From Loktanella salsilacus (lineage in GTDB: Bacteria > Pseudomonadota > Alphaproteobacteria > Rhodobacterales > Rhodobacteraceae), in the NCBI RefSeq assembly GCF_900114485.1, contig NZ_FOTF01000010.1, forward strand, positions 62,001 to 126,000: a stretch of DNA of 64,000 nt, read 5' to 3'. The stretch's first letter is position 1, and every line of letters begins with the position of its first letter. The position numbers were made by a program, and so were the translations under genes. The notes below the pieces were generated by a model, which was given only the letters and a program-made list of their open reading frames with translations, was not told the origin of the DNA and made no database searches. Shown in pieces: positions 36,567 through 50,503 of the stretch.

Positions 36567-37448
36567 TTAGTTGCGATAAACGGCGCAGGTGCAGCCCTGA
36601 CGCCGGATGTCGTTACACAGCTTGTTCGCCTCGCGAGAGGACTGCGCACCAACGCGGGCCATGTAATAGCCTTGCCGCCCCGACACCCGATTGCGGGTGA
36701 AAATCAGATCGACGGGCTTGCCCGACAGCGTCCCGCGGCACGCCTGCGCCCGCCGATCAAAGGCAGCGCGGGCTTGGCTTTCCGATTTACCAAAGGCCAA
36801 CTGCACACCCCACGGCGCATACGAAGGCGCGGGTGGTTTGAACTGCGTATAGGTCCGGTTGCGCGCCATATCGTGACAGGCGGCGCGAAACGGCATGTCA
36901 CCCTGCAAGCGGAAATCAGGTACCTCTGGCGGGGCGTCGCGCCAAGTTTCTGCCGTCAGCCCGGTGATGATCTGGACGTAATCGACGGTTTCCCGGGCCA
37001 ATCCACCGCTTTTTGCAATCAACCCCGTGGCGCGGGACTCTCCACCATTATAGGCGACAGCCGCCAGCCCCGGATTGCCAAAGCGGTCGATCAGATCGCC
37101 TAGATACTGCGCTGAAAATTCAAGCGCTTCGGCCGGGTTATAAGGGTCGCGCAGACCCCGCATTTCAGCGGTGCTGTCGATAAACTGGGCAATGCCGCGC
37201 GCCCGCGCAGGCGATAACGCGTTGGGATCAAAGCGGCTTTCCTGCCAGATCAGCCGCGCGAAAAACGCGGGGTCCATGGCGTTTTCCTGCGCAAAGGCGT
37301 CGATGGCCTGACAGGTGTCGGCCACGAAATGCGCGGGGCGAATGCACTGCACTGCGCCAAACTGCCCGGTGCTACACAGCGTGCCGCCTTCGGCGCGGGC
37401 AAGGCCCGGCAAGAACAGCAAAAGGACAAGGCTTATCAGGCGCAACAT
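36567..37448 (-). CDS. Lytic transglycosylase with C-terminal SPOR-like domain
   Basis: The 293-residue exported protein has a signal peptide (LRLISLVLLLFLPGLARA). Its SLT domain carries the catalytic glutamate in LIWQESRFDP (near residue 69), then RARGIAQFI and VAYNGGESRATG. The C-terminal third (VQLAFGKSESQARAAFDRRA to the end) looks like a SPOR fold binding denuded glycan. It cleaves peptidoglycan non-hydrolytically to anhydromuropeptides. Several cysteines near the C-terminus (CNDIRRQGCTC) may form disulphides. Confidence 0.9.
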   Translation of the reverse strand: MLRLISLVLLLFLPGLARAEGGTLCSTGQFGAVQCIRPAHFVADTCQAIDAFAQENAMDPAFFARLIWQESRFDPNALSPARARGIAQFIDSTAEMRGLRDPYNPAEALEFSAQYLGDLIDRFGNPGLAAVAYNGGESRATGLIAKSGGLARETVDYVQIITGLTAETWRDAPPEVPDFRLQGDMPFRAACHDMARNRTYTQFKPPAPSYAPWGVQLAFGKSESQARAAFDRRAQACRGTLSGKPVDLIFTRNRVSGRQGYYMARVGAQSSREANKLCNDIRRQGCTCAVYRN

Positions 37449-46550: not shown

Positions 46551-46988
46551 CTAGTCCTGCGCGGCGGCCTGCTTCCATTCTGCCAGCGGAAACATCCAGT
46601 CATAGGCCCAGTTAAACGCAAAGGCATAGGCCATGTAAAACAGCGCAAATGACACGTCCATGACAAAGGCCTGCGCCAGCGTAATGCTAAGATACCACGC
46701 GATAAAGGGCATCAGCGCGATCAGCAGGCCGCCCTCGAACAGCACCGCGTGCAGCACGCGCACCCGGCGCGATTTCAGCGTATTGCCTGTGGTCCGCTTC
46801 AGCCACAGATCGAACAGGAAGTTATAGGCGACATTCCACAGCATCGCGGTCGTCGCGCTGACGACGCTGATCACGCCAATGTCGTGCATCGGCTGGTGGA
46901 ATACGAAGGACGCGAGCGGAATAACCAGCATCAAGGCGATAACCTCAAAGCTGATGGCGTGACGGATACGGTCGGCTAAAGTGCGCAT
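46551..46988 (-). CDS. PACE family efflux transporter (bacterial transmembrane pair)
   Basis: The 145-residue protein has four transmembrane helices in two tandem pairs. The first has RIRHAISFEVIALMLVIPLA and the WNVAYNFLFDLWLKR end; the second has RVLHAVLFEGGLLIALMPFI and the AFNWAYDWMF end. This duplicated R-x-x-H-A-x-x-F-E pattern is diagnostic of the proteobacterial antimicrobial compound efflux family (AceI type, chlorhexidine and polyamine-like substrates). The membrane glutamates E15 and E86, which bind H+ or substrate in AceI, are kept. An AGAGGG ribosome binding site precedes the ATG. Confidence 0.92.
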   Translation of the reverse strand: MRTLADRIRHAISFEVIALMLVIPLASFVFHQPMHDIGVISVVSATTAMLWNVAYNFLFDLWLKRTTGNTLKSRRVRVLHAVLFEGGLLIALMPFIAWYLSITLAQAFVMDVSFALFYMAYAFAFNWAYDWMFPLAEWKQAAAQD

Positions 46989-47086
46989 GACACCCTCTGA
47001 TTAGGTGCTGGGTCGTCCCGGCTATGATCATGTCTCAGAGGTCGTCCTCGCCCTTTACATGGCCGTTTCCCCGCGCAACTTCAAGC

Positions 47087-48889
47087 CTACCAACAGCTGA
47101 CCAGCACCGTGCTTTCGGCGGCGCGCAGGGTCAGGGTTTCGGGGGGCATAAAGGCCAGCGTGTCCGTAGTGTCAGTCGCGATCCCGGCATCAGACAGGGC
47201 CGCGACAATCCGGTCAGCATCGATGATAAAGCTGACGTCAGGCGGCAGCAGCTGGCCGTCCTGCGCGACCTTTGGCAGCAGCATCCCCAGCACGGCGCCG
47301 CCGTTATCGAACACAGGGCCGCCCGCGTCGCCGTCACGGGCGGTCAGGGTCAGACGCTTCAGGTCTTCTTCGCCATTCAGGCCGCGAATATCGGCCAGGC
47401 GGCCAAAGGTCAGCGTCGGCGTCACCAGCACACCGCCGTACGGATAACCCGCGACGGCGATTTCGGTCTGCAAGCGCGGGACCTGCGTTTGGAACGCTGC
47501 GACAGATTGGGGCGACAGCGCCTCATCCGGGGTCAGCACGGCGATGCCAAGGTCTGTATCGGTCATGGTGACCGTGGCCGGGTGGCTGCCGTCGATGCTG
47601 ATTTCTTCGCAGGATTCCACAGCCATCGCATCGGTCAATACGCGGCCTTGCATGTCGATATAGAACCCGGTGCGCGACGTTTTTGGTTTGCGGATTTGCA
47701 GGCCAGCCACCAGATCAATTGCCTGATCCTCGTCCGGGCTGGCAATTGCGGGGTCCAGCACGCCGTCGATGGCATTAAAGCTGTTCTTCATCTCGTCCCG
47801 AATGCGGTCAAAGCGCGCAGAATCGCCTGCGGGCCAGACAAGGGCGAACCCTTTGATCTGCCCGTCCTCAAGCTGGGCCGAGACGTAGGATTGCACATCT
47901 GCGCTTGTGCCCGCGATTTCAAAGCTGGCGTCTTTGCGGCTACGCTCGCCCTCTGGCGGGAAAATCGCCAAAGTTTGCAGGATTTCATAAAGGCCAAAGA
48001 GGCGGTTCTGGTCGCCGCTTTGGCTGATCAGCAGCACCTGCGCGGGAATGTCGCCCTTGGAACCAAAACGGGCAAAGGGCGGCTCGTATTCGGTAAAGCT
48101 GACAGCGCCGGTGGGAATCAGGACCTCGACCCCGGCGGCAGTGTCGCGCACCAGTTGCAGGTTCATGCCGTCCAATACGCTGTTATATGCGCCGACCAGC
48201 TGCGCGCGCTGCGCCGTGGTCAGCACGCCTGTGGGGGCAAAGCCTTGCGCCAGCTGCCATGCCTCCATCGCGCCGCGGGTGCCGCGGCCAAAGGCACCGT
48301 CAACGGCGGCGTCATAGAAACCAGCCCAGCCAAGGGCGGTTTGCAGCAGCTCTTTTTCGTCTTGGGTCAACGCCTGTTCGGACACCCGGGCGTCTTGTAC
48401 GGATTCCTCTGGAATAGCCTCAACTTCAGGGGCGGGTTCCGGTGCGGCAGGGGTCGCATCAACGACTTGCGGTGCGGCATCTTCAACAGCCGGGGCGGTT
48501 TCGGCCTCTGCCTCTGCCGCGGGGGCAGGGGGTGCAAGGGGCGGGCGGGCATCGCCCGGCGCCGGCCAATACTGATCGCCAAAGCGCTCTCCGTTTGTCA
48601 GGAACGCATCGGACGGGGCCAGACCTGCTTGCCGCATTTCGCGCAGGGCAGCCGTGGCGGCCTCTCGGCTTGCGTAGGGGCCCATGACGACGGCAAACCA
48701 GCTACGGCCAAGCCGGTAGCCAAAGACATTTTCCGTCTGGCTGGCATAGACCCGCACCCGCGTATCAGCGGCGGTCTGGGTCGGTTGCGCTTCTAGCTGA
48801 ATATAGGTGCCGCTCGCGGCCTGTGCGAAAGCGATTTGGGACGTCAGGCTAAAGCTTGCGGCTGCAATCCAGATTGCCAATGGTTTCAT
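47087..48889 (-). CDS. Exported SPOR and peptidoglycan-binding protein with a degenerate trypsin-like domain
   Basis: The 600-residue exported protein has a signal peptide (KPLAIWIAAASFSLTSQIAFA), a SPOR-like domain (about 28-100), a Pro/Ala/Glu-rich linker (about 110-170), a PG_binding_1 domain (GWAGFYDAAVDGAFGRGTRG, about 185-215), a middle domain, and a C-terminal trypsin-like fold. In that fold the catalytic positions read GRVLTDAMAV (M422 for histidine), DTDLGIAVL (D446 kept) and ARDGDAGGPVFD (A522 for serine), so it should be proteolytically inactive. The start at 48889 is preferred because AAGGA precedes it; 48907 is an in-frame alternative. Confidence 0.88.
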   Translation of the reverse strand: MKPLAIWIAAASFSLTSQIAFAQAASGTYIQLEAQPTQTAADTRVRVYASQTENVFGYRLGRSWFAVVMGPYASREAATAALREMRQAGLAPSDAFLTNGERFGDQYWPAPGDARPPLAPPAPAAEAEAETAPAVEDAAPQVVDATPAAPEPAPEVEAIPEESVQDARVSEQALTQDEKELLQTALGWAGFYDAAVDGAFGRGTRGAMEAWQLAQGFAPTGVLTTAQRAQLVGAYNSVLDGMNLQLVRDTAAGVEVLIPTGAVSFTEYEPPFARFGSKGDIPAQVLLISQSGDQNRLFGLYEILQTLAIFPPEGERSRKDASFEIAGTSADVQSYVSAQLEDGQIKGFALVWPAGDSARFDRIRDEMKNSFNAIDGVLDPAIASPDEDQAIDLVAGLQIRKPKTSRTGFYIDMQGRVLTDAMAVESCEEISIDGSHPATVTMTDTDLGIAVLTPDEALSPQSVAAFQTQVPRLQTEIAVAGYPYGGVLVTPTLTFGRLADIRGLNGEEDLKRLTLTARDGDAGGPVFDNGGAVLGMLLPKVAQDGQLLPPDVSFIIDADRIVAALSDAGIATDTTDTLAFMPPETLTLRAAESTVLVSCW

Positions 48890-49058
48890 CTGCTTACAGT
48901 CCTTCATAACTTCGCACAGATCACTCGCGCGCTTTTACCAGACCCGCCCCTGCTTGCAGCACAATTCGGCGTGTTCCCGCGCAAATTAAGGCGCTGTGGC
49001 ACGATTGACCCTGTGGCCTGCGCGGCCTATGCAACACCGACTTTGCAAAGAGGGCGAG

Positions 49059-49979
49059 ATGTCAGGCCAACCGCGCAGTTTTCAAGAGATCATCCTACGG
49101 CTTCAGTCCTACTGGGCCGCGCAGGGCTGCGCCATGCTGCAGCCTTACGACATGGAGGTCGGTGCAGGCACCTTCCACCCCGCCACGACCCTGCGGGCGC
49201 TGGGATCAAAGCCGTGGGCCGCGGCCTATGTGCAGCCATCGCGCCGCCCCACCGACGGGCGCTATGGCGAAAACCCGAACCGGTTGCAGCACTATTACCA
49301 GTATCAGGTCATCATCAAACCAAGCCCGCCGAACCTGCAGGATCTGTACCTTGGCTCTCTCAAGGCGATTGGAATCGACGCATCGGTGCACGATGTGCGC
49401 TTTGTCGAAGACGACTGGGAATCCCCGACGCTGGGCGCTTGGGGCCTTGGCTGGGAGGTCTGGTGCGACGGCATGGAAGTGTCGCAGTTCACCTATTTCC
49501 AACAGGTCGGGGGCCATGATTGCAGCCCCGTGTCGGGCGAATTGACCTACGGGTTAGAGCGTTTGGCGATGTATGTCCTTGGCGTCGATCACGTCATGGA
49601 TATGCCGTTCAACGACCCGGACGCGCCGACACCGCTGACCTATGGCGACATCTTTTTGCAGACCGAACAGGAATATGCCCGTTGGAACTTTGACGTGGCC
49701 GACACCGACACGCTGCTGCAGCACTTTAAGGATGCAGAGGCCGAATGCGCCCGTATCTTGGATCAGGACGCCGTCGATCCGAAGACCGGCAAGACCATTC
49801 GCATGGCGCATCCGGCCTATGACCAAGCGATCAAGGCCAGCCATCTGTTCAACCTGCTCGACGCGCGCGGCGTGATTTCGGTCACAGAACGCCAAGCCTA
49901 TATCGGCCGGGTGCGCAATCTGGCCAAGGCCTGCGCTGATGCCTTCGTGCAGACGCCCGCAGGCGGTGCCGCCGCATGA
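49059..49979 (+). CDS. glyQ: Glycine-tRNA ligase alpha subunit
   Basis: The 306-residue class II synthetase catalytic subunit begins with [20 protein letters not shown]. The diagnostic blocks [40 protein letters not shown] and [20 protein letters not shown] are intact. It forms an alpha2-beta2 enzyme with GlyS. The ATG at 49059 follows AAAGAGGG; an upstream in-frame start at 48996 is unsupported. The stop overlaps the start of the DUF6446-like gene by 4 bp. Confidence 0.97.
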
Positions 49980-50503
49980 TCGCGAAAATTTGGATTATCT
50001 TCATCATGTTGACAGCCCTGATCGCCGGTGCCGCCCTGTATTATCTGCAGGTCTATGCCTATTACGTCGAAATCGCACCGCAGGACGCAAATGTGCAACT
50101 TGTGTCCCTGACCAGCGGCGACGCAGAGCCGATTGCGTTCGGTAACTTCAAGGCGATCGACAGCGACAGCAGCCCGCTGCGCTACCGCGCCTGCTATGAC
50201 ATGCCCGCTAGCCTTGCGATGCTGACGGAAACTTACCAGATCGCCGACGACGCCGAACCCCGCGTCGCGCCGGGCTGGTTCGACTGCTTTGATGCGAACC
50301 AAATCGGTGACGATATCCAAGCGGGCGTTGCCGTCGGCTTTGTTGGCCAGAATGACGTGAAATACGGCATCGACCGCATCGTCGCCGTCTACCCCGATGG
50401 CCGGGCCTATGCTTGGCACCAAATCAACGCCTGCGGCGAGGTCGTCTTTGACGGTAACCCCGCCCCCGAAGGCTGCCCAACTCCGCCAGAAAGCACGCGC
50501 TGA
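49976..50503 (+). CDS. DUF6446-like membrane-anchored protein between glyQ and glyS
   Basis: The 175-residue protein has one N-terminal transmembrane anchor ([20 protein letters not shown]) and a periplasmic domain with four cysteines ([31 protein letters not shown]). It resembles an uncharacterised Rhodobacterales family that I associate with DUF6446. It overlaps glyQ by ATGA and glyS by one base (TGATG), so the three genes are translationally coupled. No link to tRNA charging is evident from its sequence. Confidence 0.8.

Follow-up and report, generated by a model that had tools for sequence, protein, structure and literature searches.

The pseudoprotease gene described here lies in the window, the whole stretch of 64,000 nucleotides of Loktanella salsilacus DNA that was analysed, and encodes a protein of 600 residues whose C-terminal HtrA-like domain is very probably non-catalytic and maintained by selection as a pseudoprotease. 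That the former cleft docks a protein partner is given an even chance of being right. The overall picture, a secreted, wall-tethered pseudo-HtrA with a cleft remodelled to dock a partner without cutting it, may equally well hold or fail.

The gene consists of a single open frame on the minus strand, from an ATG at 48889 to the stop at 47087 (600 amino acids plus stop), and a second ATG at 48907, six codons upstream, would give a product of 606 amino acids. The promoter scan of the gene returned 1 promoter-like site against 0.5 expected by chance, and the terminator scan of the gene found none. An antisense open frame of 590 amino acids (47024-48796, plus strand) overlaps it; a Pfam search of this frame gave 0 matches at E ≤ 0.01, and it is likely a codon-bias artefact. 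The domain order of the protein is a probable signal peptide, SPOR, a linker, PG_binding_1, a PsbP/Mog1-like domain and the pseudo-HtrA domain:

47087..48889, minus strand: pseudoprotease gene, 600 amino acids (alternative ATG at 48907), from the open frame and Pfam
48818..48889, minus strand: probable signal peptide, residues 1-24, read by eye, no lipobox Cys seen
48614..48814, minus strand: SPOR domain, residues 26-92 (PF05036, 31.9 bits, cut-off 21)
48401..48565, minus strand: Ala/Pro/Glu-rich linker, residues 109-163, of low pLDDT and the fastest evolving part
48197..48352, minus strand: PG_binding_1, residues 180-231 (PF01471, 37.1 bits, cut-off 23)
47762..48169, minus strand: PsbP/Mog1-like domain, residues 241-376, from the AlphaFold2 model and structure matches
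47090..47692, minus strand: pseudo-HtrA (S1C-like) domain, residues 400-600, from PF13365 and structure matches

The sequence-only reading had assigned SPOR, peptidoglycan-binding and trypsin-like domains, and Pfam recovered all three, the last as Trypsin_2 (PF13365) at residues 407-536 with 51.6 bits (curated cut-off 27.6); since each exceeds its curated cut-off, these assignments lie far beyond chance. Among 20 orthologues searched at E ≤ 0.01, Trypsin_2 and PG_binding_1 were present in 20/20 and SPOR in 16/20. The full-length AlphaFold2 model, built from 20 sequences, had a mean pLDDT of 83.2 and a pTM of 0.40, with confident folded parts between the low-confidence stretches 1-23, 116-150 and 383-398; within the linker, pLDDT fell below 50 at residues 116-150 and 154-157. 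The region between PG_binding_1 and the protease fold has no Pfam match. Modelled alone on 83 sequences, residues 238-384 reached a pLDDT of 95.6 and adopted a PsbP/Mog1 fold, the best match being cyanobacterial PsbP 2xb3 (Z 12.0, rmsd 3.5, 131/147 residues aligned; 37/1000 chains at Z ≥ 8; Foldseek E 2.4e-5), and this modelled fold at 241-376 is a fourth domain that the earlier reading had missed. Residues 394-571 resemble DegS, HtrA1, DegP and MarP (Z 18.4-20.5 among the best 50 matches), for instance DegS 3lgv_I with Z 20.2, rmsd 2.2 and 160 residues aligned, and a Foldseek E of 4.5e-10 places the domain in the chymotrypsin-like HtrA fold. PDZ was absent among the Pfam matches of the whole protein up to E 10, and LytM (peptidase M23) was absent among its Pfam matches.

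The positions of the HtrA domain on which the argument depends are the following:

47672..47674, minus strand: R406, a position with Arg or Lys in 195/244 distinct dead domains and Gly in 97% of intact relatives (alignment)
47624..47626, minus strand: M422, in the slot once held by the catalytic His, with Glu or Asp in 175/244 distinct domains (alignment)
47609..47611, minus strand: C427, an invariant Cys also found in intact relatives (alignment)
47546..47548, minus strand: G448, former catalytic Asp slot, Gly in 228/244 distinct domains (alignment)
47324..47326, minus strand: A522, within GDAGGP, in the slot once held by the catalytic Ser, with Ala in 185/244 (alignment)
47273..47293, minus strand: former substrate-binding strand VLGMLLP, residues 533-539 (entropy comparison)
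47093..47095, minus strand: C599, within the C-terminal TVLVSCW motif (alignment)

Alignment to intact relatives confirmed that Met422 occupies the slot of the catalytic histidine and Ala522 that of the serine, and that the glycines around the former active site are retained, all as read earlier from the sequence. The claim that the catalytic aspartate had been kept was mistaken, as its slot is held by Gly448. Intact relatives have D-x-x-x-D-L-A-L-L, or nearly so, at this motif and the window protein has D444-T-D446-L-G448-I-A-V-L, in which D444 aligns with a non-catalytic upstream Asp of the intact relatives; the residue named in the sequence-only reading must be D444 or D446, both upstream of the true slot. 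A disulfide between C427 and C599 is possible.

The loss extends to the whole set of orthologous domains. The 139 dead loci yielded 134 distinct domains and 113 further loci added 110 new ones, and among these 244 none has the triad and none has two of its residues together, in an audit from which 12 loci known as copies had been removed beforehand and in which loci with an intact triad were assigned by rule to a separate set of 30. Single triad residues occur in a few outlying members: Asp in 4 (L150, L153, L155 and L368), Ser in 3 (L152, L328 and L347) and His in 1 (L095, from Primorskyibacter sedentarius, with Gly and Ala in the other two slots). Triads were examined at the roughly 150 listed places matched by the family profile, and weakly matching genomes were searched a second time. 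The intact set comprises L156, L157, L158, L160, L021-L023 and L173-L197, without L191, which duplicates L021, and L192, where the match stops short of the Ser loop. The distant, intact HtrA-type loci L026, L027 and L030 were excluded from both the dead and the intact sets.

In a tree computed with the triad columns excluded, 45 dead domains (from the 139 loci) and the 30 intact ones were split by one branch with support 100/98, which was also present in 100% of 200 bootstrap trees; because those columns took no part, the prior placing of intact-triad loci in a set of their own is justified. The triad is present in all intact loci examined outside the family that span the three slots, only the best matches outside the family having been taken as loci in the class-wide search. 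Given the one-branch split and the triad in every such locus outside the family, the sequences are most simply explained by one ancient loss of His, Asp and Ser, early in the family and at the root of the dead clade. The check proposed earlier, whether the residues had been lost once and stably, came out in favour of one loss as the best fit. The reading would have fallen if orthologues of the same fold were active: active-looking proteins of this fold do exist (30/30 of those compared and 10/10 further ones carry the triad), but the tree sets the 30 apart from the dead clade. Several fast-evolving members (L142, L146, L147 and L152-L155) have long branches, so their exact place in the tree is unsure, and the resolution of a GlyS tree was too poor for dating the loss.

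One locus, L156 (L228:4569-6809 in genome G185), has an intact triad and a similar domain order and lies away from glyQ. It was considered as a reversion inside the dead clade and rejected, its protease domain grouping with the intact set; in a tree rooted on L160 alone, whose bootstrap is unsettled, the N-terminal half is placed outside the dead clade (99/94). Pfam gave no SPOR match for it, a SPOR-like start being seen only with the family profile. On the basis of both placements and of its position away from glyQ it is taken as a paralogue, known from one genome.

The dead domain is under purifying selection similar to that on the neighbouring domains. Median dN/dS values (Nei-Gojobori), from 20 hand-picked, non-independent pairs, many with dS > 1 and with saturated-dS pairs removed, were 0.077 for the dead domain (20/20 pairs), 0.076 for the PsbP-like domain (20), 0.048 for SPOR (17), 0.089 for PG_binding_1 (16) and 0.178 for the linker (16/20). 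Among 120 distinct core members, 28% of the dead-domain columns are at least 90% identical, and the cleft segments are more conserved than the rest of the domain (1.10 vs 1.64 bits, permutation p 0.0019, a value partly post hoc because the segments were picked by homology once conserved positions were known). The contrast between cleft and remainder is larger still in the intact relatives (0.99 vs 2.05 bits). Residues 533-539, which by homology with the S1 fold we take to be the substrate strand, are the most conserved of the cleft segments in the dead set, with 0.53 bits in dead and 1.29 in intact domains, and differ in sequence from the intact relatives. Only this strand and the C-terminal motif are better conserved in the dead than in the intact set; the His loop (1.64 vs 1.22 bits), the Ser loop (0.93 vs 0.56) and the S1 wall (0.98 vs 0.76) are less so. 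Four residues that the intact relatives do not share are near-fixed across 125 core loci, namely R512 (99%), G448 (98%), D521 (98%) and M536 (97%). The sequence-only reading had argued from preservation to a binding or regulatory role; such a role fits a domain that is non-catalytic by sequence and kept by selection, but the preserved aspartate on which it partly relied is lost.

The former His slot covaries with position 406. In 160 of the 244 rows the ex-His slot is acidic and position 406 basic; in 35 only 406 is basic, in 15 only the slot is acidic, and 34 have neither. Of the 175 rows with an acidic slot, 160 thus carry the basic partner (Fisher p 1e-11, with no correction for kinship). 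No position is coupled to this slot more strongly than 406 (z 5.5), although six other pairs within the domain show stronger coupling. Independent pairs on a FastTree tree gave modest support, with 5.8 concordant and 0.3 discordant pairs (median p 0.039), or 6.1 and 0.6 when the traits are swapped (median p 0.0625), and none of 58 control columns showed a link as strong in this test. From this covariation the pair is read as a putative salt bridge that in most members would take up the site of the lost catalytic His; with Met422, the window protein cannot form it.

To describe the distribution, a family profile was matched to 257/295 genomes of the family sample at E ≤ 1e-20, or 252/295 after removal of five in which the best match had an intact triad (G012, G046, G113, G185 and G286); the remaining 38/295 gave no match at this threshold. 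One of the 252, G312, has a match that carries one TGA and in which the HtrA domain was not found. The class-wide sample gave matches at E ≤ 1e-15 in 58/385 genomes, of which five belong to the family; outside the family none of the matches listed had full-length coverage and most consisted of the protease part alone. Intact-triad relatives with open frames of 422-611 amino acids (L252-L261) were seen in ten genomes of the family.

The chromosomal place of the gene is marked by a divergent neighbour outside the proposed mechanism:

49059..49979, plus strand: glyQ, conserved divergent neighbour (PF02091)

It adjoins the pseudoprotease gene divergently in 76/80 named loci, which are the best 80 of 552 places and for that reason lean to close relatives. 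Of the four exceptions, L071 and L093 are long enough to be real, and the remaining two are short contigs (3.7 and 5.1 kb). A DUF6446 gene and glyS come after glyQ in 74/80 named loci; in the window the DUF6446 gene lies between them (49976-50503, plus strand, 196.9 bits). A chlorhexidine efflux (BTP) transporter gene is located just downstream of the pseudoprotease gene (46551-46988, minus strand); tblastn at E ≤ 1e-8 did not detect it in any of the 80 named loci. Eight of the family genomes that lack the gene at glyQ were examined: trkH adjoins glyQ in five (G185, G286, G009, G052 and G097), another gene does so in G012 and G113, and in G024 glyQ was not found on the stretch fetched. The neighbours glyQ, DUF6446, glyS, trkH and folE2 point to no wall function, and the search for a partner in the gene neighbourhood was set aside, the shared neighbours being housekeeping or unnamed genes.

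In the mechanism proposed, the protein would be secreted to the periplasm and anchored to peptidoglycan by PG_binding_1 and by SPOR, whose predicted preference is for septal glycan free of stem peptides, and the PsbP/Mog1-like and dead HtrA domains would be presented from this wall anchor. After His, Asp and Ser had been lost, most simply once and early in the family, the cleft would have turned into a fixed groove in which a partner, most likely an envelope or wall-remodelling protein, is bound and left uncut; the septal site, suggested by the SPOR domain, the identity of the partner and the effect on it are what we infer. The window also encodes a SLT transglycosylase-SPOR protein of 293 amino acids (36567-37448, minus strand; SLT 73.2 bits followed by SPOR 25.7 bits), about 10 kb from the pseudoprotease gene, which is a partner candidate by type only. 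A more specific version, in which the protein is a Rhodobacterales HtrA-based counterpart of LytM factors, its dead cleft docking and controlling peptidoglycan-remodelling enzymes at denuded glycan and perhaps this transglycosylase among them, is speculative and rather unlikely to be right; if true, it would represent a new class of wall-enzyme regulator.

Other readings of the dead domain share part of this evidence. It might regulate an active protease, pairing or competing with a periplasmic HtrA as MamO does with MamE, a precedent in which activity is promoted without an own triad according to the excerpted text of PMC4794232. The genome of the window has five Trypsin_2 places, two of them (C38 and C22) HtrA-type with intact triads, and the dead protein occurs together with a closer intact relative in G075 and G157. 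Against this, no member of the closer intact group was found at E ≤ 1e-25 in the genome of the window (6/21 first-look candidates scored), a place at least 45% identical to an intact query was found in 14/195 genomes (10 examined, all intact), and no protease gene is linked among the neighbours common to at least 8 of the 80 named loci, so that regulation of a protease is considered unlikely. It is likewise doubtful that the domain is a wall-anchored, chaperone-like peptide sensor, with unfolded or C-terminal peptides from envelope proteins bound uncut in its cleft: the fold is retained and the substrate strand strongly conserved, as such a sensor would have it, but PDZ is missing from the Pfam matches and the pocket residues are unlike those of active relatives. 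Metal binding on a repurposed HtrA surface has its Alphaproteobacterial precedent in MamO, where two surface histidines are used according to the part of PMC4794232 consulted, and is hardly credible for a protein with one His.

That single histidine also bears on whether enzymatic activity persists through a shifted or alternative active site, which the retained GDxGGP oxyanion loop would favour. Its 600 residues include only H436, in a column that is His in 40/125 core loci (every other His column of the domain in at most 25), and this one poorly conserved histidine excludes a shifted His-based triad, the outcome that would have refuted the sequence-only reading, both in the window protein and across the family taken together; two triad residues occur together in 0/244 distinct domains, and enzymatic activity is regarded as very improbable. 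The remaining view takes the HtrA domain as a drifting remnant in a protein in which only SPOR, PG_binding_1 and the PsbP-like domain matter. It draws on several fast-evolving members and on the positional orthologues of G046 and G312, in which SPOR, PG_binding_1 and the PsbP-like part are retained and the HtrA domain was not found by tblastn at E ≤ 1e-4; the domain is thus kept by most of these bacteria yet dispensable. The orthologue of G046 (L229:5246-6886) has two SPOR-like stretches, PG_binding and the PsbP-like part, and an intact-triad PG_binding-trypsin protein is encoded elsewhere in that genome. Although these two orthologues count for decay, passive decay is disfavoured by a dN/dS equal to that of the PsbP-like domain and by the share of near-invariant columns, and we judge it improbable. 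Of the readings weighed, a selected pseudoprotease whose former cleft may dock a partner is the one preferred.

Pseudo-HtrA proteins are already a known kind, and what is new here is the wall-targeted, family-wide form. A survey of 2008 counted 966 prokaryotic serine proteases, 42 of them catalytically inactive homologues, and the excerpted text of that survey contains no SPOR-trypsin protein (PMC2605481). No published description of this protein was found by title or abstract start, in a search to which subscription journals were mostly external. Another protein weighed as a possible orthologue, the SPOR protein Dshi_0924 that is plentiful in vesicles of Dinoroseobacter shibae, was set aside, since the part of PMC7901474 consulted lists it as an outer-membrane lipoprotein and the window protein has no visible lipobox Cys. 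The sections consulted of the Rhodobacter sphaeroides DalA and CenKR papers hold nothing tied to this gene (PMC10470522, PMC9275681).

Pseudoproteases have mostly been described singly, and here one is found in most of the family genomes sampled, at a fixed chromosomal place and with the dead domain under selection, which provides a large natural data set on a protease turning into a binding protein. Should the groove hold a wall enzyme or another protease, it would offer a handle on how wall growth and division are steered.

With regard to known systems, the intact S1C-type proteases of Alphaproteobacteria (for example L156, L160 and L173-L190) also have a Cys after the His loop and mostly a C-terminal ECW-like motif, but their triad is complete in 30/30 compared; L156 further shares PG_binding_1 and the SPOR-like start. 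MarP (Rv3671c), an active protease, has the same HtrA-like fold (3k6z_A, Z 18.9, rmsd 2.4, 158 residues aligned, 28% identity), and the window protein scored 36.9 bits against the MarP family model NCBIfam NF033740, whose cut-off is 250. FtsN, DamX and RlpA are SPOR proteins, and none of them is known to have an HtrA-like domain.

MamO, the inactive, metal-binding HtrA homologue through which magnetotactic bacteria promote MamE-dependent cleavage, resembles the window protein in being an HtrA-type fold of Alphaproteobacteria repurposed after loss of catalysis, and differs in keeping His and Asp, with Thr for Ser, and in having a TauE transporter domain and a two-histidine metal site (PMC4794232, in the portion consulted). 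In the window protein all three residues are gone, the partner domains are of wall-binding types and a di-histidine site is lacking. In DipM of Caulobacter, autolysins dock in the degenerate groove of a dead LytM domain carried by wall-binding domains. Peptidoglycan-binding domains joined to an inactive peptidase domain, in which a degenerate groove is conserved, are common to DipM, other dead-LytM regulators and the window protein; DipM differs in its LytM metallopeptidase fold, its LysM domains and its known partners, in place of the HtrA and SPOR domains found here (PMC10336132, in the portion consulted). Having no LytM domain and no second histidine, the window protein belongs to neither kind; by analogy, DipM would be the closest working model and MamO the closest by fold.
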